From IMG/VR virus record IMGVR_UViG_3300047481_002870, positions 1 through 35,461 of that record: a stretch of DNA of 35,461 nucleotides. One strand, 5' to 3'. Position numbers and translations under genes: made by a program. The stretch's first letter is position 1. Every line of letters starts with the position of its first letter. This stretch comes from a virus. Below are positions 4,679 to 34,362 of this stretch, piece after piece. The notes under the pieces are model-generated. The model was not told where the DNA came from, searched no databases, and was given only the letters and a program-made list of their open reading frames with translations.

Positions 4679-4851
4679 GTGCCACGCCCAACAAAACACG
4701 CAACGGTCGTGACCGTCTGGGCGTATTCAACTGGACACAGTTGGTGGCTGCCTTGGAAAAAGCCCAGCGCGGCCGTGATCGCCAACGCCTGCGTAACCGC
4801 ATGGCCTGGATCCAAAAACATTGCCCACACATGATCCCTGCACAAACATGA
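4675..4851 (+). CDS. Small basic hypothetical protein
   Basis: A 58-residue frame between two annotated-looking genes, joined to both by ATGA overlaps (4675-4678 and 4848-4851). That coupling is the main evidence that it is real. The product is basic, with many Arg and Gln (EKAQRGRDRQRLRNRMAW), and would form one long helix. I recognise no family. Confidence 0.6.
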   Translation: MSATPNKTRNGRDRLGVFNWTQLVAALEKAQRGRDRQRLRNRMAWIQKHCPHMIPAQT

Positions 4852-5033
4852 CCGATCAAGCCACGCTGAGATTCACCAGACCGGTGATGGCTGATCCCGA
4901 CGACCCCGATGGTCTCTTGCTGGACCTTGGCCTGGAAATCTGCGAGGTACTGGGCTGGCAAGTGGGCGATGTCTTGACCTGGACTGACAACGGAGATGGG
5001 ACATGGACACTGACCCGCAAAGACCAATCCTAG
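4848..5033 (+). CDS. AbrB/SpoVT-like small protein
   Basis: A 61-residue protein. The pattern LLLDLGLEICEVLGWQVGDV then LTWTDNGDGTWTLTRK is that of a swapped-hairpin AbrB/SpoVT strand-helix-strand unit, as in MazE-like DNA-binding proteins. The first strand is short and the usual basic DNA-binding loop is weak, so binding activity is uncertain. I recall such one-domain proteins in aquatic T4-like phages. It is coupled to the previous gene by ATGA and overlaps the next by 31 nt. Confidence 0.6.
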   Translation: MTDQATLRFTRPVMADPDDPDGLLLDLGLEICEVLGWQVGDVLTWTDNGDGTWTLTRKDQS

Positions 5034-5542
5034 CCGATCTCAACGTCACTGGCGTTGATCTTGACCGGATCTCAGGATTGAGCATCGACGATTCCATCAC
5101 CCTGGATCTCAGCCCGCATGGTGCAGCCGCACAGCCCATCTACAGCATAGACATGGGATCAGGCACCATGTTCAACAACTGGACCGCTGGCACCATCACC
5201 ACCACCACTATTGGTGCCGGCGGTACCGGCAGTACCTTGGGTGCCGGCAGCCTGGACTGGCAAAGTTATGGTATCAAAAGTCCGGTCACCCTCAACCAAA
5301 ATGGCAGCATTGATCTCCAGGGCGACCAGGCCGACATCGTGATCAATGGTGTGAGCCTGTCAGAGACCCTGCGCACTCTACAGGAACGCATGAACATGTT
5401 GGTGCCTGATCCACGCATGGAACAGGAATGGGACGAACTGCGCGAGCTCAGAGAAGCCTATGAGCACAAGCTGGCCCAGTGCCGGGAAAAAAGTCGCATG
5501 TGGGACCGACTCAAAAGCATGCCCCCACCGGAGAAACTATGA
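5003..5542 (+). CDS. Phage protein with Gly/Thr-rich middle and coiled-coil C-terminus
   Basis: A 179-residue protein. GGAG lies 8 nt before the ATG, supporting this start despite the overlap. Residues 1-45 are a polar domain. Residues 50-90 are rich in Gly, Thr and Ser, like fibre or shaft sequence. Residues 120-170 form a charged helix (MEQEWDELRELREAYEHKL) likely to be a coiled coil. This suggests a virion-associated oligomer, but it is encoded away from the structural block. A related coiled-coil tail occurs in T4-like phages as I recall. It is ATGA-coupled to nadE. Confidence 0.65.
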   Translation: MDTDPQRPILADLNVTGVDLDRISGLSIDDSITLDLSPHGAAAQPIYSIDMGSGTMFNNWTAGTITTTTIGAGGTGSTLGAGSLDWQSYGIKSPVTLNQNGSIDLQGDQADIVINGVSLSETLRTLQERMNMLVPDPRMEQEWDELRELREAYEHKLAQCREKSRMWDRLKSMPPPEKL

Positions 5543-6312
5543 CATCTCGACAAAGAATCGCCCATATTACCCGATGGATCAAAAACTACGCTGCTCGTAA
5601 CAGAGTCAAGACTCTAGTAGTAGGTGTGAGCGGCGGCATTGACTCGGCCGTGGTCTCCACTCTGTCGGCGCGTACCGGCCTGCCTGTGATCGCTGTGAGC
5701 ATGCCCATCCGACAAAGCCGAACCACGCACAGCCTCAGCATGGCCCACGGCGCTTGGTTGGTGGAGAATTTTGACAATGTAGAACATCGCCTGGTAGATC
5801 TTACTCCTGCTTTTAAACAGTTTGAGCGACTGTTCTTGGATGGATCTGAACTGGGCCTGGCCAATAGCCGGGCACGACTCAGGATGATGACTCTGTACCA
5901 GATCGCCCAGGACACAGGTGGCATCGTGGTAGGCACCGGCAACAAGGTCGAAGACTTTGGCGTGGGATTCTACACCAAATACGGCGACGGCGGTGTGGAC
6001 ATCTCGCCCATTGGTGATTGTCTCAAGACCCAAGTCTGGGCGATGGGCCGCGAGCTGGGCGTACTGGACGACATCATTGATGCTGCCCCCACTGACGGAC
6101 TCTGGGCCGATGGTCGCACCGACGAGTCACAGCTGGGCATGACCTATCCCGAACTGGAAGAGGCCATGCGACTGGATCAGCTCAACGACGATAATATCGA
6201 GATCCGGAATCTTGACAAAACTCAACGCAGTCTCCTGCGCCGATATCGCGAGATCCGAGCACGGAATCTGCACAAGATGCTGCCCATTCCGGTGTGCAAA
6301 TTTGACACATAA
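5539..6312 (+). CDS. nadE: NH3-dependent NAD+ synthetase
   Basis: A 257-residue enzyme making NAD+ from deamido-NAD+, ATP and ammonia, the last step of NAD synthesis. The ATP-pyrophosphatase P-loop SGGIDS is at residues 31-36. GTGNK (132-136) and TKYGDGGVD (146-154) are the conserved adenine and deamido-NAD contacts of NadE. Length is normal for the ammonia-dependent form; there is no glutaminase domain. The start is the ATG at the ATGA overlap; an earlier in-frame ATG is a shadow of the previous gene. As a phage gene it may keep NAD+ high during infection or counter NAD-depleting defences; that role is inference. Confidence 0.93.
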   Translation: MTSRQRIAHITRWIKNYAARNRVKTLVVGVSGGIDSAVVSTLSARTGLPVIAVSMPIRQSRTTHSLSMAHGAWLVENFDNVEHRLVDLTPAFKQFERLFLDGSELGLANSRARLRMMTLYQIAQDTGGIVVGTGNKVEDFGVGFYTKYGDGGVDISPIGDCLKTQVWAMGRELGVLDDIIDAAPTDGLWADGRTDESQLGMTYPELEEAMRLDQLNDDNIEIRNLDKTQRSLLRRYREIRARNLHKMLPIPVCKFDT

Positions 6313-6330
6313 CTGACCTTCATGTAAACT
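6302..6330 (+). promoter_or_regulatory. Sigma70-like promoter TTGACA-N17-TAAACT
   Basis: TTGACA (6302-6307) overlaps the last codons of nadE. A 17-bp spacer and TAAACT (6325-6330) follow. The predicted start near 6337 falls inside the palindrome CTAGTA-A-TACTAG, so an operator is possible. It drives the cell wall hydrolase and the membrane gene behind it. Confidence 0.7.
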
Positions 6331-6435
6331 AGTAATACTAGCCGTTAATGACCAAATGGTGTCATTTGGCCGGGGTTTGGACCGTATTTCTGGCACCAAA
6401 CTGTAAGTAAAACTACTCAAAAAGGAGAGCACCCC
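6329..6435 (+). promoter_or_regulatory. Structured 5' leader of the cell wall hydrolase gene
   Basis: A leader of about 100 nt. It begins with a 13-bp palindrome, CTAGTA-A-TACTAG (6329-6341), on the predicted start site. The hairpin CCAAATG-GTGT-CATTTGG (6352-6369) follows, and AAGGAGA lies before the ATG. No T-run follows the hairpin, so it is not a terminator. It may be an operator plus a stability or translation-control element for a lysis gene. This is the longest leader among the sigma70-type units here. Confidence 0.45.
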
Positions 6436-6993
6436 ATGGAAACACGGATCGTAGATCATGTCTCGACCGCCATCAAAGGTCTTGCACTTTTGCTAGTGAT
6501 CGCAGTGTTGGCCTGGAGCACTGACCAGGCCTTTGAGCGAGCCATATTTGAACGCAACAGCATGTCGATAAACTTTGTGTCGGCCTCTGACCGAATGAAA
6601 CAACTGGAATGCCTTACTCGCAACATCTACTGGGAAGCTGCCAGTGAGCCGTTTGAGGGCAAGGTCGCAGTGGCACAGGTCACACTGAATCGCTTGCAGT
6701 CCGGCAAATTTGCCGACACTGTGTGCGGGGTGGTCTATCAGAAAAATGTGGTCTACAGCAGGGTTATCTGCCAGTTCAGCTGGTACTGCGAGCCACATCA
6801 TCGGGTCAGGCCCGTGCATCAGGTCATGTGGGACGAAAGCCACGAAGTGGCCAAGCGCGTTTTGTTAGAGGGATTCCGGCTGCCCAGCCTGGAACAAGCC
6901 TTGTATTATCATGCAGATTATGTGCAACCTGGTTGGCGCAAGCCCAAGATTGAGAAAATTGGCCGCCACATCTTTTACGGAGAACGTGTATGA
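6436..6993 (+). CDS. SleB-like cell wall hydrolase (Hydrolase_2 family)
   Basis: A 185-residue protein, probably a lysis or peptidoglycan-cutting enzyme. Residues 13-27 form an uncleaved N-terminal anchor (GLALLLVIAVLAW). The catalytic domain (about 55-183) starts with NIYWEAASEPFEGK; Glu67 matches the catalytic Glu of SleB-type lytic enzymes. VAVAQVTLNRLQSGKFADTV and CQFSW complete the family pattern. The anchor suggests a signal-anchor endolysin crossing the inner membrane. It has a strong AAGGAGA site and a structured leader, and is ATGA-coupled to a membrane protein, forming a likely lysis pair. Confidence 0.88.
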   Translation: METRIVDHVSTAIKGLALLLVIAVLAWSTDQAFERAIFERNSMSINFVSASDRMKQLECLTRNIYWEAASEPFEGKVAVAQVTLNRLQSGKFADTVCGVVYQKNVVYSRVICQFSWYCEPHHRVRPVHQVMWDESHEVAKRVLLEGFRLPSLEQALYYHADYVQPGWRKPKIEKIGRHIFYGERV

Positions 6994-7292
6994 CCATCGA
7001 CATCGCTCGTGCAAGAACTGCCTTGGAAGGCGCACTCAAACGCATCAGTGCTGAAACCATGGGTTGGTTGGCCGGCATAGTGATACATGCGGCCACTGTG
7101 CCAACCTTGCTGGCCATTATCACAGGGTTGACAGATTCAGGTCCCAGTCTTGATGTAGTGGCTTTCATGTGGGCCGGACTGGTACTATTGTTCTTCCGTG
7201 CCGTGGTGCTGCGCGACATGCTCAACATCGTGACCCTTAGTTTGGGCTTTATGATCCAGGCCGCGCTGATGGCCTTGATCATCTTCAAGTAG
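6990..7292 (+). CDS. Small membrane protein, candidate holin
   Basis: A 100-residue protein with about three hydrophobic segments (roughly 25-46, 56-72 and 80-99) after an amphipathic N-terminal helix. It is ATGA-coupled to the SleB-like hydrolase, and a class I holin-like size and topology fits a lysis cassette. Similar proteins occur next to hydrolases in T4-like phages as I recall, but I know of no test of holin activity. T4 itself uses a different holin. The next promoter starts right at its stop codon. Confidence 0.7.
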   Translation: MTIDIARARTALEGALKRISAETMGWLAGIVIHAATVPTLLAIITGLTDSGPSLDVVAFMWAGLVLLFFRAVVLRDMLNIVTLSLGFMIQAALMALIIFK

Positions 7293-7321
7293 TTGACCAA
7301 TAATGACGAGTCTGCTATACT
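7293..7321 (+). promoter_or_regulatory. Sigma70-like promoter TTGACC-N17-TATACT
   Basis: TTGACC (7293-7298), 17-bp spacer and TATACT (7316-7321). The ATG at 7328 lies 6 nt after the -10 box, so the predicted start site is the start codon. The first bases (TTGACCAATAATG) match the other members of the promoter family. Confidence 0.83.
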
Positions 7322-7327
7322 ACCAGC

Positions 7328-7591
7328 ATGACTACAAAAATCTATCCGCATCTAACTGTAATCGTAGACACTGAGCCTTGGTTCCAGGATCTCCTAAGCG
7401 GTTATGGCGATGCTGATCATGCCCAGCGCCGGCTCTTGCGTGAAAAGATGAGCGAGCGCGACCGCAGTTTCTCACAGTGGTTAATCGCTCATGGCTATGA
7501 GTACGGACGTGACTATCAGCGATGTGATCAAGGATTCCAATTTGCCAACCCCGGGTTGGCCACCATGTTTGCCCTAGGAGCACAACCATGA
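7328..7591 (+). CDS. Small hypothetical protein with FALG C-terminus
   Basis: An 87-residue soluble protein. Its C-terminal part, FQFANPGLATMFALG, resembles the endings of the tandem small genes at 9040-10049 (HFADEQNATMFALRWS and relatives), so it is probably a diverged member of the same family. The N-terminal part (LTVIVDTEPWFQDLL) has no match I know. It heads the operon running through the methyltransferase, with a predicted leaderless transcript, and is ATGA-coupled to the next gene. Confidence 0.7.
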   Translation: MTTKIYPHLTVIVDTEPWFQDLLSGYGDADHAQRRLLREKMSERDRSFSQWLIAHGYEYGRDYQRCDQGFQFANPGLATMFALGAQP

Positions 7592-8004
7592 CCATGCACC
7601 TCGAAGGTCCCTGGATGACCACCACGCGCTACAGCAAGCGGCCGCACAAAAAATGGGCCAGCAGTGAGGCCAAGCAACGAGCCGAACGCGAAGCTCGCGA
7701 ATGGGCCGAACTCAGTCAGCGCCTAGAAGATCTCGCCCCCAACTTTGCTGGCCGCAGGTATGCCGCACAGGCCATGCCGCGCGGTGCATTCCAGCCCTTG
7801 CAGAACCGCTCAATCTATCCACCCGGTCGCGAGCCCCAGCAACAGATCCCCAGTCGTGATTCAGGCGTGGGCGTGGCTGCTGCTCCCGCGGCCAAGGTCT
7901 ACACCGGTACCAAGATCCGCGGCATCGGCACCATGCACAAGTCAAATGCCGTGCCCATCTTTTCCGACGAAGAAGCTCAAGACATCGCTCGCATGCGGAG
8001 ATGA
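7588..8004 (+). CDS. Conserved phage protein with GIGTMHKSNAVPIF motif
   Basis: A 138-residue protein. It begins with HLEGPWMTTTRYSKR, has a charged helix (SSEAKQRAEREAREW, about 25-40) and a Pro-rich linker. It ends with TKIRGIGTMHKSNAVPIFSD and EEAQDIARMRR. I recall this ending as highly conserved among many phages of aquatic bacteria, also outside the T4 group, with no known function. The strict conservation suggests a binding peptide for a host or phage partner; that is inference. Confidence 0.85.
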   Translation: MTMHLEGPWMTTTRYSKRPHKKWASSEAKQRAEREAREWAELSQRLEDLAPNFAGRRYAAQAMPRGAFQPLQNRSIYPPGREPQQQIPSRDSGVGVAAAPAAKVYTGTKIRGIGTMHKSNAVPIFSDEEAQDIARMRR

Positions 8005-8011
8005 ACTGCCG

Positions 8012-8542
8012 ATGCCTTTGATCTCTGAATCTTATCGACGTTTGCTGGAACGTGAGCATGCGATTAGGCCCTGGGGACACGCTGCCAGCGAAGCCATTGA
8101 ACAGATTTGCCAGTTCATTGACCGGCATGCTGGCAATGAAATCCTAGACTACGGAGCAGGCCAGGCGTATCTAGAACGTGAGTTACCAAAAAGATATCCT
8201 GGTATCAAAATTTGCAGTTATGACCCCGGAGTACCACAAATATCATCTGCCCCTTGCCCTTGCGACTTAGTGGTTTGCATTGATGTGCTGGAGCATGTGG
8301 AACCTGATTGTCTAGAGGCAGTGCTGGAAGATCTTGTTAGAGTCACAAAAAAACATGGATTGTTTCATGTATCCACGATACCGGCCTCGAAGATACTGCT
8401 CGACGGGAGAAATGCTCATCAGATAGTAGAATCCCACGATTGGTGGTTGGACCGCATCTCACAGAATTTCCGAATAACCAATCATAGTATCAATCATGTA
8501 TTATTTGAATCCAAATTTGAAGTAGCAAGCAAAGCACTGTGA
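8012..8542 (+). CDS. Class I SAM-dependent methyltransferase
   Basis: A 176-residue protein from ATG 8012, the first ATG after the previous stop. Motif I is EILDYGAGQAYLE (43-55), the acidic end of strand 2 is SYDPG (about 68-72), and DLVVCIDVLEHVEPD is the post-motif region of small-molecule-type methyltransferases. ESHDWWLDRI follows near the end. The substrate is unknown; DNA-methylase NPPY-type motifs are absent. Codon use looks more A+T-rich than neighbouring genes. The next gene's GTG overlaps its stop. Confidence 0.85.
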   Translation: MPLISESYRRLLEREHAIRPWGHAASEAIEQICQFIDRHAGNEILDYGAGQAYLERELPKRYPGIKICSYDPGVPQISSAPCPCDLVVCIDVLEHVEPDCLEAVLEDLVRVTKKHGLFHVSTIPASKILLDGRNAHQIVESHDWWLDRISQNFRITNHSINHVLFESKFEVASKAL

Positions 8543-8724
8543 ATTACAACGAACGCATTCGCCAACGCTGTGACTGGTTGCTGGCCAGCCTAGTAGGCGC
8601 AGACCTAGTGGAAGATTGGTGGCAGTCACCCAACCGGCACTGGAGCGGCCAGCGGCCACAGGATGTGTTTGAAACCCACCCCCAGGATGTGCTGGACTAT
8701 CTCATGTATTACGCACTCAAATAA
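8539..8724 (+). CDS. Small MbcA/ParS-like (DUF2384-like) protein
   Basis: A 61-residue protein read from GTG, overlapping the previous stop. The pattern DWWQSPNRHWSGQRPQDVF and then PQDVLDYLMYYAL resembles the C-terminal toxin-binding segment of Xre/MbcA/ParS antitoxins (W..PN..L.G..P.D....P..V...L). No helix-turn-helix part and no RES toxin are present, so it is not a complete toxin-antitoxin pair. It might act as a stand-alone anti-toxin; this is speculative. Confidence 0.5.
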   Translation: MNYNERIRQRCDWLLASLVGADLVEDWWQSPNRHWSGQRPQDVFETHPQDVLDYLMYYALK

Positions 8725-25860: not shown

Positions 25861-26064
25861 ATGACTCATCGAGTGTACAAAACCGCCGGAGGCAAACAGC
25901 TGGATCTTGGCAAACTGGCCTTGAAAAACGAAACCGAGCGTGCTGTGGGCAACATGAAAGTGAACGCACGCGGCGACATGTTGGATGATGCAAACCGTGT
26001 GATCGCCCGCAAAACCGACCAAGTAAACCGACACTACAACAAACAGGTAACTAAAAAAACATGA
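25861..26064 (+). CDS. Small conserved phage protein with RAVGNMKVNARGD motif
   Basis: A 67-residue basic protein. GAGGAG lies 6-10 nt upstream; a GTG directly before the ATG is a less likely start. The stretch ETERAVGNMKVNARGDMLDD (30-49) is a strongly conserved signature that I recall from many T4-like phages of aquatic bacteria, with no known function. A late-type promoter suggests a virion or assembly role. It is ATGA-coupled to the co-chaperonin gene. Confidence 0.75.
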   Translation: MTHRVYKTAGGKQLDLGKLALKNETERAVGNMKVNARGDMLDDANRVIARKTDQVNRHYNKQVTKKT

Positions 26065-26462
26065 GCAAGCTGGCCTACGCACCACACCAGATCCGACGCG
26101 AGCAGTTTCGTGCCTTGCATGACTGGATCATAGTCACGGACATGGAGTTCCAGGAAAGATTCACACAGGGTGGCATCATCCTGCCCAACGACAACGGCAA
26201 AGGTACCGGCATCCGTCCTCGATGGGGACAGGTCTATGCCACAGGGCCCGAACAGAAAGATGTCACAGTGGGTCAATGGATCTTGGTAGCACATGGCCGA
26301 TGGACCCGCGGTCTAGATGTCGAAGATGAGACCGGGCGGCACACTGTGCGCAGGGTAGATCCCAAAGATATCCTATTGATCTCCGACGATCAACCACAGG
26401 ACGACACCATGAGTGACGCGGTGCACATCGAACAAAAACCCGACTACATGTGCCACACATGA
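26061..26462 (+). CDS. GroES-like co-chaperonin (T4 gp31 analogue)
   Basis: A 133-residue protein. It shows the GroES order: FRALHDWIIVTDMEFQ (18-33, the first strand pair), then a mobile-loop region with TQGGIILPN (36-44). A central strand WGQVYATGPEQKDVTVGQW follows, with VRRVDPKDILLISD near the end. The C-terminal 25 residues are an extra tail. T4 gp31 replaces host GroES to enlarge the GroEL cage for folding capsid protein; the same role is likely here. There is no GroEL gene in the window. It lies between a late-type small gene and the clamp loader. Confidence 0.83.
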   Translation: MSKLAYAPHQIRREQFRALHDWIIVTDMEFQERFTQGGIILPNDNGKGTGIRPRWGQVYATGPEQKDVTVGQWILVAHGRWTRGLDVEDETGRHTVRRVDPKDILLISDDQPQDDTMSDAVHIEQKPDYMCHT

Positions 26463-26689
26463 AGCAGGACTGGGACGTAGGTGATGTACTGGCCCAGCTG
26501 CGGCGCTGCCATCGAGCGGCGTCCAATAACTGGGACACGGGATATGTCCAATGGCCTTGCAAACAAGACCTGTATCAAGTAAAATTTGCTGTAGATGAGA
26601 TGTTGAAGAACACGCCCACCTTTTCTGGCGAACAGGAATGGCTGGAAGAACAATCCAAGAAACAAGTCTGGAACGCACTCAAACAATGA
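26459..26689 (+). CDS. Small conserved protein before the clamp loader
   Basis: A 76-residue protein from ATG 26459 (ATGA overlap). The motif MKQDWDVGDVLAQLRRCHRA, then WPCKQDLYQVKFAVDEML and PTFSGEQEWLEE, is one I recall from other aquatic phages next to the clamp loader. It is small, helical and without a catalytic motif. It is coupled to the ATPase gene by an ATGA overlap. It is too short to be the T4 gp62 small subunit. Confidence 0.7.
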   Translation: MKQDWDVGDVLAQLRRCHRAASNNWDTGYVQWPCKQDLYQVKFAVDEMLKNTPTFSGEQEWLEEQSKKQVWNALKQ

Positions 26690-27609
26690 AACAACTCTGG
26701 GTAGAGAAATACCGTCCCAGCACAGTGGACGGCTATGTTTTTGTTGATCAAGATCAAAAAGAGCAGGTCATGACCTGGATCCGCGATGGCTCCATACCGC
26801 ATCTCATGCTGAGCGGTGCAGCTGGCACAGGCAAGACCACCTTGGCCAAGATGCTGATCGCCGAGCTGGGCATCGACGACTACGACGTGATGTATGCCAA
26901 TGGATCCAAAGAAGCCAGGAAAGTGGCCTGGGTAGATCGCTTGATTTCATTCTGCGAAACCATGCCATTTGGCCGTTTCAAAGTGGTGTTGATCGACGAA
27001 GCTGACTACATGAACAAGGATTCGGTACAGCCGGCCCTGCGCAATCTCATGGAAGACTACAGCCAAAGCGTGAGATTTATCCTGACCTGCAATTACCCGC
27101 ACAAGATCATCCCGCCCATACACAGTCGATGCCAAGGATTCCACATCACCAAGACCGATCACACCGAGTTCACGGCCCGGGTGGCCACGGTGCTGGTCAC
27201 AGAAAACGTGGAATTTGAACTCGACGTCCTGGATACCTATGTCAAGGCCACCTATCCTGATCTCAGGAAATGCCTCAATCTCGTGCAGGCCAACAGCCAG
27301 ACCGGCCGTTTAAATGCACCGCGCGAAGCTGACGCCGGCCTGCGCGATTGGAGACTCGAAGCCGTTGAACTGTTCAAACGCGGTGAAATACGAGCAGCCA
27401 GGAACATCATGTGCCAGCAGAGTTCGCCTGAAGAAGCCGAAGACATATTCCGTTGGATGTATGACAACCTGGACCTCTGGGGTGCCACTCCCGAGCAGCA
27501 AGATCAGGCCATCGTGATCATACGCAATGGTCTGGTCAACAACAACTCCGTGGCCGATGTGGAAATCAATCTTTCGGCCACTCTGATAGAACTGGCACAA
27601 ATACAATGA
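26686..27609 (+). CDS. Clamp loader ATPase subunit (T4 gp44 / RFC small subunit type)
   Basis: A 307-residue AAA+ protein that loads the sliding clamp (T4 gp45) on primer-template DNA. Walker A is GAAGTGKT (44-51), Walker B is VVLIDEAD (100-107), the sensor-1 region is FILTCNYPHK (131-140) and the arginine-finger SRC is 147-149. The opening WVEKYRPSTV is the usual RFC/gp44 start. The C-terminal collar domain (about 230-307) is present. The length is close to T4 gp44 (319 residues). The clamp also activates T4 late transcription, so this gene links replication to the late-type promoters seen here. Confidence 0.93.
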   Translation: MKQLWVEKYRPSTVDGYVFVDQDQKEQVMTWIRDGSIPHLMLSGAAGTGKTTLAKMLIAELGIDDYDVMYANGSKEARKVAWVDRLISFCETMPFGRFKVVLIDEADYMNKDSVQPALRNLMEDYSQSVRFILTCNYPHKIIPPIHSRCQGFHITKTDHTEFTARVATVLVTENVEFELDVLDTYVKATYPDLRKCLNLVQANSQTGRLNAPREADAGLRDWRLEAVELFKRGEIRAARNIMCQQSSPEEAEDIFRWMYDNLDLWGATPEQQDQAIVIIRNGLVNNNSVADVEINLSATLIELAQIQ

Positions 27610-27893: not shown

Positions 27894-28485
27894 CATTGAC
27901 TCCAGAGATCTCATCCTAGTCGACTGCGACGGCGTGCTCCTGAACTGGGAGTATGCGTTTGCGGTGTGGATGGAAGCACACGGATTCGAAAAAACTCCCG
28001 GCGCCAATTGGATCTATGACATCGGCGAGCGCTATGGCATCGATCGTGCCCAGAGCCGGAAACTGGTCAAGATCTTCAATGAAAGTGCAGCCATCGGATT
28101 CCTGCCAGCGCTGAGAGATGCGGTGTACTATGTGAAACGCCTGCACGAAGAACACGGATTTCGGTTCCACTGTATCACCAGCCTCAGCCAAGACCGTAAC
28201 GCAGCCAAACTCAGAGAAATGAATCTAGCCAAGCTGTTTGGAGATCAGGTATTTGAGCACATCGAGTGTCTGGACACCGGCGCCGACAAAGACTCGGCCT
28301 TGGAGCCCTATCGCGATTCCGGCTGCTGGTGGATCGAAGACAAGCCAGCCAATGCCGAAACCGGCGCACGCATGGGTCTGCGCCCCATACTCATGGAACA
28401 CGGGCACAACATGGATCATGAGTGCCCGTGGCCTTTGGTCAAGAACTGGCGTGAGATCTATGATCTCATCGTGGTTCAGTCCTGA
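27880..28485 (+). CDS. HAD-family phosphatase, 5'-nucleotidase-like
   Basis: A 201-residue protein of the haloacid dehalogenase fold. Motif I is LVDCDGVLLNW (13-23) with Asp15 as nucleophile and Asp17 as acid/base. Motif II is around HCITSLSQDRN (Ser/Thr after the second strand). Motif III/IV is WWIEDKPANAETG with the metal-binding acidic pair. The cap between motifs I and II is short and helical, as in deoxyribonucleotidases. It may dephosphorylate nucleotides or remove a 3'/5' phosphate in DNA repair. Its end meets the minus-strand phoH gene, with a 10-bp overlap. Confidence 0.82.
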   Translation: MPQHNIDSRDLILVDCDGVLLNWEYAFAVWMEAHGFEKTPGANWIYDIGERYGIDRAQSRKLVKIFNESAAIGFLPALRDAVYYVKRLHEEHGFRFHCITSLSQDRNAAKLREMNLAKLFGDQVFEHIECLDTGADKDSALEPYRDSGCWWIEDKPANAETGARMGLRPILMEHGHNMDHECPWPLVKNWREIYDLIVVQS

Positions 28486-29213
28486 TAAAGCTCTAACACA
28501 CTTCCTATGATGGGGTGACGCTGTACATCGCGCGATTCCAGCCCGCACACTGCTATGCCAGTCACGGGTTGACTCTGGAGGCGCTCGCAGAGGTCCAAAA
28601 GGCCGTTCTGCCCTGTGGCACGGTCAGCCTGCTCGACATCTCCGGTGATCACTATCTTTGAATCCTGTCCTATGCGGGTCATCAGCATCTTGGCCTGTGC
28701 CGGTGTGGCATTCTGCATTTCGTCTGCGATTATCCATGAGCGTTTAAAGGTCCGACCGCGCATGTAAGCCAGAGGCGCTATTTCTATGACCTGATCTTCG
28801 AGCATGGCCGAGATGTCCTGTGGACGGTAATACTCCCGCATGACGTCCAGCAAAGGACGGGTCCAGGGTTCCATTTTGGCTATGAGATTGCCGGGCAGGA
28901 AACCATGTTGTTCGCCCTCGACACCCACTGCGGGGCGGGTCATCACTATCCTTTCGCATTCGCCCGCCCGTAATGCCTTGACTGCGGCCAGCATGGCCAG
29001 ATAGGTTTTGCCTGTGCCTGCTGGTCCTGCTGTGACTACGATGTGCTGATCGGGATCTTGCAGGGCCATGACCAAGCGTTCCTGGTTGCGTGTGCGTGGC
29101 ACGAGTTCTATGCGTCGTGCCACTGACCGCGGAGCCGGGCTAAATGCTATGGTGTTTTCTGCCACTGCTTGATTCATCCTTTTTTGTGCCTTTTGTGCTC
29201 GTTGTCTGCTCAA
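28476..29213 (-). CDS. phoH: PhoH-like ATPase
   Basis: A 245-residue P-loop protein common in T4-like and many aquatic phages. The Walker A site is GPAGTGKT (63-70 from this start) and the Walker B stretch is SWIIADEMQNATPAQ (about 159-173). TRPAVGVEGEQHGFLPG is the PhoH signature in between. I chose TTG 29213 because AAAGGAG lies 8 nt before it; a longer frame upstream lacks one, and an ATG at 29177 is a second possibility. PhoH proteins are thought to act on RNA. A late-type promoter (CGTAAATA) lies about 40 nt upstream on the same strand. Confidence 0.9.
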   Translation of the reverse strand: MSRQRAQKAQKRMNQAVAENTIAFSPAPRSVARRIELVPRTRNQERLVMALQDPDQHIVVTAGPAGTGKTYLAMLAAVKALRAGECERIVMTRPAVGVEGEQHGFLPGNLIAKMEPWTRPLLDVMREYYRPQDISAMLEDQVIEIAPLAYMRGRTFKRSWIIADEMQNATPAQAKMLMTRIGQDSKIVITGDVEQADRATGQNGLLDLCERLQSQPVTGIAVCGLESRDVQRHPIIGSVLELYQD

Positions 29214-29253
29214 GTGCGATTCTCCTTTGTGATCCGGCTGGGCCGGACATGGA

Positions 29254-29261
29254 TATTTACG
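29254..29261 (-). promoter_or_regulatory. Late-type promoter (CGTAAATA) for phoH
   Basis: Read on the minus strand, CGTAAATA has the TAAATA core at 29259-29254. The predicted start near 29248 leaves a leader of about 35 nt with AAAGGAG before TTG 29213. Confidence 0.5.
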
Positions 29262-29309
29262 GACTGGTCTCAGCCACATAAACAGGTACTATTCTGGCTG
29301 ACTCAGGTC

Positions 29310-29958: not shown

Positions 29959-30490
29959 ACACCTCATGGAAGGTCTGCAATACCGAGATCTTGACGGCAT
30001 GATGAAGCCCACCATCCATGTGGACGAGTTTGCTGCCAAGATGGGCGACGACGATGACATCATCGTCGTCAGTTTTTTCGTGCGTGACCAGCAGGCCGCC
30101 AAGGATCTAGTCAGCTGGTTCGAGCGCGGCTATGACTTTGTGCTGGATGCCGATCGCAGTCCTGGAGAAATCAAGCCCAACCGCTATCTTGTGTATGTGG
30201 AAATCCGACGCCGCAGTGCTGCCCCCCAACACATACAGCGCCTGCTGGAAGATCTGGGCACGCTCACTGAGTTTGACGTGGACGACTGGCAGATGCATTA
30301 CAAAGACAAGAATCACGCCTGGAGCGAAGACACCTTCGCTGCTCTGGTGCCGCTCACGCCCGATGCCTATCGCCGTGACAACGACCAAGACCTCAATGAG
30401 ATGCGGGTGGCCGCGGGTCTAGACACGCGCCGCATCTACAGCGACACGGCCGAAACTCGGGCTCTCAAGGCCGCTGCAGGCATCATATGA
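29951..30490 (+). CDS. Conserved T4-like phage protein, unknown function
   Basis: A 179-residue protein that overlaps its neighbours on both sides. DDDDIIVVSFFVRDQQAAKD and WFERGYDFVLDADRSPGEIK and VEIRRRSAAPQHIQRLLEDL outline an alpha/beta fold with paired strands, which I recall from T4-like phages without a known role. The start MFEHLME-G has the LxE-G form of a head-protease site at residues 5-8, weakly like the genes that follow. No ribosome-binding site of note; translation coupling is likely. Confidence 0.7.
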   Translation: MFEHLMEGLQYRDLDGMMKPTIHVDEFAAKMGDDDDIIVVSFFVRDQQAAKDLVSWFERGYDFVLDADRSPGEIKPNRYLVYVEIRRRSAAPQHIQRLLEDLGTLTEFDVDDWQMHYKDKNHAWSEDTFAALVPLTPDAYRRDNDQDLNEMRVAAGLDTRRIYSDTAETRALKAAAGII

Positions 30491-30840
30491 GATATCGTGA
30501 AATCCTGGAAGCCTGTTGGACCGGCTATCGTCAGCAAGGCATGAAGAAAAAAGGCAGCAGGATGGTGCCCAACTGTGTGGCTGTGAGCGAGGCCGAGCTG
30601 GAAGAAGATCTCAAAAAGTGGTTCCGTGAAAAATGGGTGAGATTTGGCCCTGACGGCAAGATCCGTGGCGCCTGCGCTCGTGGTTCCAAATCCGAAGGCA
30701 AGCCCAAGTGCCTGCCCCAGAAGAAGGCACATGCCTTGGGCAAAAAAGGTCGTGCTTCGGCCGCGGCCCGCAAACGTAGACAAGATCCCAACCCCGAAAG
30801 ACGTGGCCCTGCCAAGAACGTGGCCACCAAACGCTCATGA
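30487..30840 (+). CDS. Basic DUF5872-like protein with capsid-targeting-like N-terminus
   Basis: A 117-residue protein, ATGA-coupled on both sides. The start MRYREILE-A resembles the T4 capsid-targeting sequence (MKTYQEFIAE-A) in order: basic, aromatic, Glu, hydrophobic pair, Glu then Ala. Next comes GMKKKGSRMVPNCV (19-32). The rest is LKKWFREKWVRFGPDGKIRG, PKCLPQKKAHALGKKGRASA and a tail of Lys, Arg and Pro (ARKRRQDPNPERRG). I recall the same blocks in phage proteins near DUF5872. The strong positive charge fits a head-internal or DNA-binding protein. That it is packaged is inference. Confidence 0.75.
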   Translation: MRYREILEACWTGYRQQGMKKKGSRMVPNCVAVSEAELEEDLKKWFREKWVRFGPDGKIRGACARGSKSEGKPKCLPQKKAHALGKKGRASAAARKRRQDPNPERRGPAKNVATKRS

Positions 30841-33380
30841 TACTAGACCAACTGTTTGAAGACCCAAGATCGCGACGCTTGTCGGCCGAAGAAAAACTGC
30901 AACGTGCCATCGAGCGCGAAAGGGCCCGTAATCCGCGTCCAGGGACCAGTCACTTAGATCGCTTGCTGGCTGCTCAGCGTGCTGCCGATGCTGCCAAACG
31001 CCGAGACCTGGTCGAATTCGCACCTGACAGCAGCGGTGACGATGGCGGCGACGATGGATTCAGCGAAGAAACACTTAAAAAGTTTGCGGCACAGTGGTAT
31101 AATGGCGACGAAGATCCTCAAGTAGAAAAGACCTTGATGGCCGCAGGTTGGGAAATTGGTCAAGACGAAGGCTACGACGACGAACCTGGTGTGTTTGTAG
31201 TGCAGGCAGGTGACATCAATGGCCACAGTTTTATCAGTTGGCCTGCCAACGAATTACGACAAGGTGTGGCGGAAGGCTCCGAGCAATATTACGCTATCGT
31301 CCATAAAGTAAACAACAAACCACTAAGCACACATCGTAATTTGGAATCAGCCAAAGATGAATGGCGTGGTTTAGATCAAAATCAAAGACAATTTTATAAA
31401 GTAGTTACTACTAAAAAAGCGCCAAAAGATTGGTCAATGAAAGAACAAGGTGTCTCGGAAGGCATAGATCCTTACCGCTTGGAACGACTAGATCCACAGA
31501 CACGCAGGGTGTTGATTCGCATGGGCGATCATAAAGATCCCGGATCATGGCTCAGTGCCTCAGAAGCCTATGCCATGATGCTGGGCCTACAGTACAAGAA
31601 CCGCGATCCCCGAGGCTGGGAACAAGAAGTCCAGCATTATGTGGACCTTTATCGGCAATACAGTGGACAAGGTGTCACGGAAGGCTTTGGTAGCGGTCTA
31701 GCCGGCGGCACCTTCGGCTTTTTAGCGGGTATTCCTTTGGCTGCTACGACAGGAATAATTGGTTGGATGTTCGGTACAAGCGAAACGGGTGCCAACGTCT
31801 GGTTAGGAACGATGGCTTTATCAACTGCATTAGGATCCTGGTTGGCGAACAAGGCAGACGAAGCAGATAATAAAATAAATTCTTACAGATCCAAAAAAAT
31901 ATTTTCTGTATTCGTGAACGGGAAGAAAATATCAACCAATTTAATGGATTATACAGATGCCGGGAAAATGATAGCAAATTTAGCTAAAAAAGAGCACAAT
32001 CCTGATACATATTTTACTATCTATGATAATGAAGCAGAAGAAATATCATGGAGGTTTCAAATAAAAGACGATAAGCGTGAAGATGATGGATTAGAAGAAA
32101 GCGTCAATCAAGGTGTCTCGGAAGGCTCCTTGAATGAACAGACCACTGAGGGAATCATTTATGCCACTGGACCACGATCCATGGGTATCAACGATGTTGA
32201 CTTGGTTTTCAAAAATCTTAGAACAAATAAAATCGTAGCATCAGTGGTGGGCAACAATGACCATGGTGGAATTTACGAAATAAGAATCAATCAAAATGGC
32301 GTCAGCAAAGGGCCGCCCAACTTTGTGGCCCGGGGCAATCCCCAGAACAGCAGTGATGAACATGTGGTATATAAACTGGATCCCACCAGTGGTAAAACTG
32401 GCTCTACTATACGCAATGGCTTTGATGAAGAGAATGGCACTTACTATGGTATGACCATGGAGTTCGTAGGCGACGATGACTACTGGTCATTCTTGGAAAA
32501 CATCATCGGCGATATCATGTGGGAAGACGATGCCATCGAAGCCGGTTATGTTGACAGATTAAACAACGGTGATCTTGTATTCACAAAACAGCAAGGCGTA
32601 TCAGAAGGCAGTCGTGAGCATGGCAGTGCCTATGACCGCGGTGCTGCTGATTCTTGGTATGGCAGGCCCTACAATCCACAAAAATACAGCGATGCTGCGG
32701 CACAGGCCGAGTACAAGGCCGGCTACGATGAAAACGAAAGCCAGGCCAGCATGCGCAAAGACTACGACGATGACCGTGATCTTGACCAGGATCGTGACCA
32801 GTTGGACGAAGATGGACGCACTGTGGAAGTGGTGGTCAGTGACGGTACCAAGCGATATCAGCGTCGTGTTCGAGTTGGCACCAACACCAAAAATCTCGAA
32901 TCTTCCATCGTGAAGTACTACCAGAAACTGGGACTGCCAGTGATCAGCATCGACGGAAAAAAGGTTTCTGCTGCTGTGGCCGAAACCAATGATAGTCGAG
33001 TTTTAGACCGATACATGAGCGTGGAAGTCATCACCAAAGGTGGGCGCCGAGAACGACGCCAGGTACGCCTGAGTTCGACCACACAAGACCCCATACGTGC
33101 CATCATGTCCCACTACGCTCGTCAGGGCATGGAACTGTATTCGGTGGATGGTCGCAGAGTGGGAGCCGGTTCATTGGCCAAAAACGAATCACGCATGAGT
33201 TGTCCTGAATGTGGTGGTCCCATGTTCAAGAGCCGCTTCATGGCCGAAGAGCAGGATGCCTGTTATCACAAAGTGCGCAGTCGCTACAAGGTATGGCCAT
33301 CAGCCTATGCATCGGGCGCCCTGGTGCAGTGCCGTAAAAAAGGTGCTGCCAACTGGGGCACCGGAGGGAAGAAAAAATGA
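30837..33380 (+). CDS. Modular 847-residue protein with five QGV(S/A/T)EG linkers
   Basis: An 847-residue protein starting MILDQLFE-D. QGVAEG or QGVSEG/QGVTEG occurs at residues 142-147, 204-209, 278-283, 425-430 and 586-591, dividing it into six parts. Part 1 (1-141) is acidic and helical. Part 2 (148-203) is short and basic. Part 3 (210-277) is helical. Part 4 (284-424) begins with two Gly-rich hydrophobic segments (about 287-305 and 320-340), probably membrane-inserting. Part 5 (431-585) is beta-rich. Part 6 (592-847) has an acidic linker, two tandem repeats of about 50 residues (661-712 and 728-778) and a Cys domain from CPEC (789-792), followed by ACYHKVRSRYKVWPSAYASG. G+C differs sharply between parts. 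It looks like a polyprotein carried in the head. Confidence 0.8.
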   Translation: MILDQLFEDPRSRRLSAEEKLQRAIERERARNPRPGTSHLDRLLAAQRAADAAKRRDLVEFAPDSSGDDGGDDGFSEETLKKFAAQWYNGDEDPQVEKTLMAAGWEIGQDEGYDDEPGVFVVQAGDINGHSFISWPANELRQGVAEGSEQYYAIVHKVNNKPLSTHRNLESAKDEWRGLDQNQRQFYKVVTTKKAPKDWSMKEQGVSEGIDPYRLERLDPQTRRVLIRMGDHKDPGSWLSASEAYAMMLGLQYKNRDPRGWEQEVQHYVDLYRQYSGQGVTEGFGSGLAGGTFGFLAGIPLAATTGIIGWMFGTSETGANVWLGTMALSTALGSWLANKADEADNKINSYRSKKIFSVFVNGKKISTNLMDYTDAGKMIANLAKKEHNPDTYFTIYDNEAEEISWRFQIKDDKREDDGLEESVNQGVSEGSLNEQTTEGIIYATGPRSMGINDVDLVFKNLRTNKIVASVVGNNDHGGIYEIRINQNGVSKGPPNFVARGNPQNSSDEHVVYKLDPTSGKTGSTIRNGFDEENGTYYGMTMEFVGDDDYWSFLENIIGDIMWEDDAIEAGYVDRLNNGDLVFTKQQGVSEGSREHGSAYDRGAADSWYGRPYNPQKYSDAAAQAEYKAGYDENESQASMRKDYDDDRDLDQDRDQLDEDGRTVEVVVSDGTKRYQRRVRVGTNTKNLESSIVKYYQKLGLPVISIDGKKVSAAVAETNDSRVLDRYMSVEVITKGGRRERRQVRLSSTTQDPIRAIMSHYARQGMELYSVDGRRVGAGSLAKNESRMSCPECGGPMFKSRFMAEEQDACYHKVRSRYKVWPSAYASGALVQCRKKGAANWGTGGKKK
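31260..31277 (+). repeat. Module-boundary repeat, site 1
   Basis: CAAGGTGTGGCGGAAGGC, coding QGVAEG at residues 142-147, followed by TCC as in site 4. It marks the switch from about half G+C upstream to about 35% in the next module (hand count). Confidence 0.9.
31446..31463 (+). repeat. Module-boundary repeat, site 2
   Basis: CAAGGTGTCTCGGAAGGC, coding QGVSEG at residues 204-209, identical in all 18 bases to site 4. The following module is about 52% G+C. Confidence 0.9.
31668..31685 (+). repeat. Module-boundary repeat, site 3
   Basis: CAAGGTGTCACGGAAGGC, coding QGVTEG at residues 278-283. It precedes the module with two hydrophobic segments, which is about 39% G+C. Confidence 0.9.
32109..32126 (+). 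repeat. Module-boundary repeat, site 4
   Basis: CAAGGTGTCTCGGAAGGC, coding QGVSEG at residues 425-430, identical to site 2. The following module is about 44% G+C. Confidence 0.9.
32592..32609 (+). repeat. Module-boundary repeat, site 5
   Basis: CAAGGCGTATCAGAAGGC, coding QGVSEG at residues 586-591, with three base changes from site 2. After it the base composition returns to that of the rest of the genome. Confidence 0.88.
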
Positions 33381-33786: not shown

Positions 33787-34362
33787 ATGCGAGCCCGTGA
33801 GTTTGTCCAAGAGAAAATCAACTCTGACATACTTGATCCCAAGTTCTTTGCGGAAAAAACCGTGACCATCAAGGGTGAACCTTTCGTGCTCAAGGCCCAG
33901 GCCATCGACAGCAAGATCATTCCACAGGTCAGGATCGAAGCCATCGATCCCAATGGAAAGAGCGTGGGCTATGTGCGGTTCGTGGTACACAACGCTGATC
34001 AACCCAGCCGTTGGTTTCAACGGCGAGAAGAACCCTATCTTTCGGCCGGTAATCTTTCGGTGTGGAATGAATATCAACGTCGCGGCATAGCATCGGCCAT
34101 GTACAACTTTGCTCGCGAACTGGGCAATGACATCCAGCCCAGCGGCACACAGACCGATCAGGGTCGCGCATTCTGGCAGGCCGGTGCTGGACAGGCCGAA
34201 ACTGAAAAATTAGAAGAGCTGTCGTTCCTGGGCAGTGAATGCACCAAAGACTGTTCGGGTCATCGCGCTGGCTACGAATGGTACGCACAGAACCAGCGCC
34301 AGCCACAATCGGTCAGCGCCAGTTTCAACAAAGGCGCTTACCTACGCAGCCAAGGCCGATAG
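33787..34362 (+). CDS. GNAT-like acetyltransferase with targeting-like N-terminus and Cys domain
   Basis: A 191-residue protein. The start MRAREFVQE-K matches the T4 targeting peptide closely (REFVQE against QEFIAE). A GNAT-like domain follows: SVGYVRFVV is strand 4, and LSVWNEYQRRGIASAMYNFA (motif A, R/Q-x-x-G-x-A/G) is the acetyl-CoA site (about 97-116). A second domain starts at LGSECTKDCSGHRAGYEW and ends SASFNKGAYLRSQGR; I recall it from other phage proteins, function unknown. It is only 2 nt after the previous stop. An injected acetyltransferase that modifies a host protein is an attractive but untested idea. Confidence 0.75.
   Translation: MRAREFVQEKINSDILDPKFFAEKTVTIKGEPFVLKAQAIDSKIIPQVRIEAIDPNGKSVGYVRFVVHNADQPSRWFQRREEPYLSAGNLSVWNEYQRRGIASAMYNFARELGNDIQPSGTQTDQGRAFWQAGAGQAETEKLEELSFLGSECTKDCSGHRAGYEWYAQNQRQPQSVSASFNKGAYLRSQGR

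Follow-up and report, generated by a model that had tools for sequence, protein, structure and literature searches.

The window analysed here, 35,461 nucleotides of virus record IMGVR_UViG_3300047481_002870, carries near its end an ORF of 847 aa (30837-33380) that reads as a string of small modules joined by five QGV(A/S/T)EG repeats (Table 1). An earlier note on this DNA had pointed to these five repeats and to the frame kept between them, and all five indeed lie in the frame of the ORF. A mismatch-tolerant DNA pattern gave 5 matches where 0.29 were expected, a number that none of 100 shuffles reached, and in 20,000 shuffles of the protein the motif QGV[AST]EG was found at most once, in just 8 of them. 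Copies 1 to 4 depart from the family consensus, CAAGGTGTGGCGGAAGGC, at 0-2 positions and copy 5 at 4, and comparison of the copies bears out the statement that the second and the fourth are identical over 18 bases.

Table 1. Features of the cassette-array ORF and of its neighbours (a slash in a peptide marks the predicted cut).
Feature	Coordinates	Strand	Remarks
Upstream gene, DUF5872-like	30487..30840	+	MRYREILE/A start; same module internal to L074 and L087 arrays
Cassette-array ORF, 847 aa	30837..33380	+	MILDQLFE/D start, capsid-targeting-like; zinc-ribbon-like module at end
N-terminal 'WYNGDEDP' module	31014..31259	+	in 16 other phage loci, partners differ
Joint 1, QGVAE/G	31260..31277	+	CAAGGTGTGGCGGAAGGC, exact match to family consensus
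Module 1, GC 38%	31278..31445	+	96% DNA identity to L005; flanks there unrelated
Joint 2, QGVSE/G	31446..31463	+	2 mismatches to consensus
Module 2, GC 53%	31464..31667	+	97% DNA identity to L252; flanks there unrelated
Joint 3, QGVTE/G	31668..31685	+	
Module 3, GC 40%	31686..32108	+	composite; first part hydrophobic and rich in glycine, second part (from about 31857-31900) low-GC, beta-beta-alpha-beta-like
Joint 4, QGVSE/G	32109..32126	+	18/18 bases same as joint 2
Module 4, GC 45%	32127..32591	+	70% DNA identity to L074/L084 module located after DUF5872-like module
Joint 5, QGVSE/G	32592..32609	+	4 mismatches to consensus
C-terminal modules	32610..33377	+	tandem pair of small beta-beta-alpha-beta domains (aa about 660-775), plus zinc-ribbon-like module VWPSAYASGALVQCRKKGAANWG
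Downstream gene	33787..34362	+	MRAREFVQE/K start; weak GNAT acetyltransferase match

The computed G+C contents of modules 1 to 4 (37.6, 52.7, 40.1 and 44.9%, with a window mean of 53.4%) are close to earlier hand counts of 35, 52, 39 and 44%. The accompanying claim that composition changes exactly at the repeats holds for joints 1 and 2, where the steps are sharp, and fails in module 3, which looks composite because G+C drops to about 30% within it, near 31857. No relative of module 3 was found outside the window. The N-terminal module is predicted to fold as helix-helix-strands-helix (pLDDT 74), with no PDB match better than E 0.25, and the model of the whole protein (mean pLDDT 50) is useful solely for the small folded segments that it shows and for the low confidence at the joints. 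The domain at aa about 660-775 (45-60 aa, predicted beta-beta-alpha-beta in the window copies) is recurrent, in tandem and across many arrays, among them modules of L002, L005 and L074, with sequences that are very different. Only few modules match known domains, and Pfam and PHROGs say little. GNAT-like modules form part of the L077 and L169 arrays, the separate window gene at 33787-34362 has a weak GNAT match, and one module of the L059 array (4751-8686) resembles ribosome modulation factor (RMF) at E 4e-4, below the cut-off. Elsewhere in the window there are a NAD synthase (5479-6312; PF02540, E 4e-49), possibly for NAD metabolism or NAD-based counter-defence, and, near a clamp-loader AAA protein (26638-27609), a GroES-like co-chaperonin with a Cpn10 match (26061-26462) and a PhoH-like ATPase (28476-29279, minus strand), the last judged by sequence only.

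Cassette-array genes of this kind form a large family in uncultured T4-superfamily phages, to which the ORF belongs; 183 ORFs with 1-9 joints occur among 166 records, and the median cassette module is 78 aa long. The note had read it as a cassette-swapping gene, with modules of different sources joined through a short shared sequence, and this reading has stood up well. When modules were searched singly, modules 1 and 2 were found elsewhere with different partners, their identity to L005 and L252 beginning and ending inside the 18-mer, as expected of breakpoints at the repeats, and the relative of module 4 in L074/L084 also sits among other partners. Nor are the set and order of modules constant among related genomes: of the 136 module clusters present in at least two records, 96 have two or more different neighbours to the left or to the right, a count to be read knowing that a few of the 166 records overlap. 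L025 and L090 are 100% identical over 513 bp and show no similarity beyond; L059 and L078 are 98.5% collinear over 5,889 bp, after which the same modules are permuted and some are gained or lost; and between L074 and L084, from phages that are 96-98% identical, a single cassette has been replaced by two and a module has been lost between two VEEG/MEEG sites. The ends of homologous segments (at least 80% identity) fall no more than 6 aa from a joint in 41% of cases, compared with 7% for random positions. With the same cassette beside different partners and breakpoints at a shared joint, the gene behaves as a cassette-exchange array, and our comparisons show that phages gain, lose, replace and permute cassettes by crossovers inside the joint. 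The DUF5872-like module, a separate gene at 30487-30840, lies within the arrays of L074 and L087; cassettes thus also turn into separate genes.

The joint is a peptide motif and, at the same time, a DNA element. Its 18-bp consensus, encoding QGVAEG, is nearly fixed: the exact sequence occurs in 37 of the 58 copies that were not selected by the search pattern, and the pairwise DNA identity frequency of unselected QGVAEG copies is 0.43, against 0.004 expected from codon usage. Conservation extends to silent positions, as had been proposed from the window alone, the joint alanine codon being GCG in 91% of cases and in 10% in the same ORFs. Near-copies keep to one reading frame of an ORF in 265 of 266 cases, and a second set shows the same for 92 of 92. 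The codon pattern points, if only indirectly, to a constraint on the protein and not to a role at the RNA level. In IMG/VR the 18-mer has at least 120 matches, which cover only the first 6 of 74 loci known from a narrower pattern, and extrapolation suggests a total of about 1,500, while a synonymous 18-mer used as control had 16 matches in the whole of IMG/VR, all in unrelated proteins. The joint was absent from the 50,697 phage records searched, cultured phages included, and neither the extended joint nor the N-terminal module had a match in the GTDB bacterial and archaeal genomes searched, where the joint pattern was longer and stricter than the 18-mer. What cultured phages have in common with the arrays is limited to the zinc-ribbon-like module (365 records) and DUF5661.

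What the peptide does is inferred from the constraint on its residues. Over 448 joint copies with at most 4 mismatches, the P1 glutamate has undergone 6 nonsynonymous and 27 synonymous changes, and every copy but one has V, M, I or L at P3 (30 of 31 replacements are of V by M, I or L), whereas P5 (111:4, nonsynonymous to synonymous) and P1' (110:54) vary freely. The constrained residues, a hydrophobic one and a glutamate two residues later, make up the motif of the T4 prohead protease gp21, which cleaves after L/I-X-E (PMC9026906). Sites of the hydrophobic-x-E type are rarer within modules than expected (41 observed, 57.9 expected), whereas the other ORFs of the same contigs show no such depletion (614 observed, 503.9 expected; modules against other ORFs, motif against reversed motif, Fisher p=1.5e-4). 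Counting against cleavage, P3 is given as L/I in the gp21 logo and the joints mostly have V.

The beginnings of the cassette ORFs, in turn, are like those of T4 internal head proteins. Starts such as MRATEFITE/QGVAEG, MKAREFITE/A and MRFTEFISE/A resemble the MKTYQEFIAE/A of T4 ipII/ipIII, and the pattern is matched by 67 of 116 cassette ORFs (58%) and by 236 of 1228 other ORFs, a threefold enrichment (p=6e-18). The family thus has a targeting-like peptide that ends in hydrophobic-x-E, to which the start of the window ORF bears a weaker likeness, and the downstream gene at 33787-34362, with its similar start, likely encodes another head-targeted protein. Large array-carrying contigs have gp20, core protein, gp21, gp22 and gp23 in T4 order; gp21 (PF03420) was detected in 6 of 20 and gp23 (PF07068) in 8 of 20, in contigs that include the capsid region, and the propeptides of capsid proteins in large contigs appear to end in LSE/SAT or LKE/NAS. 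In three large contigs, away from the main capsid gene, small ORFs of 136-157 aa (L110, L113, L114, L116, L117 and L118) also match the gp23 model, in separate short stretches at positions 5-32 and 124-193. The window record, a 35-kb fragment, has no match to gp21 and no gp23-type capsid protein. This lack of gp21 counts against our main reading, set out next, as do the 42% of cassette ORFs whose starts fall outside the targeting pattern and, in large contigs, the great distance between array and capsid genes.

Taken together, we consider it probable that the gene encodes a cassette-swapped, head-packaged polyprotein that is cut into small internal proteins. The swapping is directly visible in the genomes; cutting at the joints, packaging and injection are inferred from sequence, in the absence of virion proteome or cleavage data for these phages. 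The array could instead be a cassette-shuffled multidomain protein that works as a single chain and is never cut, with QGVAEG as a flexible linker. The low, linker-like model confidence at the joints would fit, and polyvalent phage proteins with 2-15 domains are known. We think this unlikely, as it leaves unexplained the strict P1 glutamate, the hydrophobic P3 and the free P5 and P1', the depletion of L/I/V/M-x-E-small sites in modules and the capsid-targeting-like starts.

The conservation of the joint DNA exceeds the needs of a protease site and its explanation therefore rests on the recombination part, for which the enzyme is unidentified. Integron- or homing-like systems, with a dedicated site-specific recombinase or endonuclease acting on the 18-bp joint and a protein motif of secondary importance, would account for DNA conservation far beyond codon usage, for joint copies that are all on one strand in each genome and for crossovers within 15-18 bp. 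Nevertheless, we regard such a system as quite improbable: neither tyrosine integrase (PF00589) nor serine resolvase was found in any of the 19 large array-carrying contigs, although unknown recombinases and endonucleases are not excluded, and the near-invariant reading frame of the joint copies also speaks against it. Because these recombinases were not found and a UvsX/RecA-like protein was (RecA-like, 7 of 19 of the same contigs), we favour a general recombination engine for the cassette-swapped polyprotein.

The presence of tail-type genes elsewhere in the window, and the fact that shuffling in phage proteins is best known from receptor-binding proteins, might suggest a tail or adhesin protein with receptor-binding domains as modules, yet no adhesin or tail domain was detected in any array scanned and the starts resemble head-targeting peptides, which makes this very improbable. 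Finally, fusion of unrelated metagenome contigs by assemblers at the 18-bp repeat can hardly be credited, even if every record is a metagenome assembly and some repeats run a few bases past 18 and could reach a small k, because separate assemblies agree on the module order of entire arrays, 7-10 modules long (L075/L078, L046/L083/L092, L068/L073), L074 and L182 are 99.9% identical over 7.9 kb, and misassembly produces neither the selection pattern of the joint nor the targeting-like starts.

Several known systems resemble parts of this arrangement. Nearest in proposed function are T4 IPI, IPII, IPIII and Alt, which bear capsid-targeting sequences (CTS) and are processed by gp21, and which are alike in their MKTYQEFIAE-type N-terminal peptide, in hydrophobic-x-E cleavage (inferred here), in being small and highly diverse proteins and in belonging to phages with a capsid gene order of the type seen in array-carrying phages; T4 differs in having one gene per internal protein, instead of many modules per ORF, a fixed 18-bp joint and in-frame exchange. 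In integrons, cassettes are separate genes that an integrase moves at attC sites. The arrays share with them an open pool of cassettes exchanged via a short conserved site, but array cassettes are in-frame protein segments, and since a PF00589 integrase was found in none of the 19 contigs we do not file the array as an integron. Polyvalent proteins, which phages and conjugative elements encode and which are thought to be injected along with the DNA, likewise combine many small domains in one polypeptide, although no shared DNA joint or joint-bounded shuffling is seen in the parts of that work available to us (Iyer et al. 2017, PMC5512222), and almost no domain from that work was found in the arrays, only one sub-threshold Kinase-PolyVal (L062); together with the GNAT, RMF-like and DUF matches, this neither places the arrays in the polyvalent class nor rules them out of it. 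Mosaicism and domain shuffling in phage proteins similarly involve exchange of fragments between unrelated proteins, but, to judge by the terms that it uses, the paper on them describes no shared joint in head-internal proteins (PMC10684548). The zinc-ribbon-like C-terminal module VWPSAYASGALV is common to cyanophage proteins annotated as structural (T4-GC0119 and relatives), which also have a multi-module layout and differ in lacking both the 18-bp joint and the QGVxEG array.

A fuller proposal, for which we see an about even chance, is a widespread phage system in which a single 18-bp element serves both as recombination joint and as protease site, T4-type phages draw on a common pool of effector-sized cassettes, and the capsid protease cuts the changeable polyprotein of each phage for injection. 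Cassettes do pass between phages by crossovers in the joint. Homologous or single-strand-annealing recombination in co-infected cells could move them, and since exchange needs matching joints only consensus-keeping cassettes would remain in the pool, which we propose as the cause of the fixed spelling of the joint. The N-terminal peptide would then direct the chain to the prohead core, where a gp21-type protease would cut G-[VMIL]-x-E/[GAS] at every joint. The released modules may remain in the head until they are injected together with the DNA, as are the T4 head proteins Alt and IPI-III (PMC3012670, PMC12373910). Once inside they could, by analogy, act on host defences or metabolism, and as few modules match known domains any host-directed function rests on that analogy. 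If the polyprotein is targeted and cut in this way, one expressed gene would deliver a changeable set of host-interaction proteins.

In the literature searched we found no description of cassettes arrayed in frame around a joint that serves two purposes. The proposed function, an inference, is that of the T4 internal head proteins, among which the highly diverse IPI-III act by blocking restriction enzymes; the array layout itself is new. Our reading predicts cleavage at every QGVAE/G, and the 18-mer is a searchable tag with which metagenomes can be mined for many phage proteins that are uncharacterised and probably directed at the host. A shared joint for the in-frame trade of small proteins would, if true, offer these phages a direct route to refresh their sets of internal proteins.
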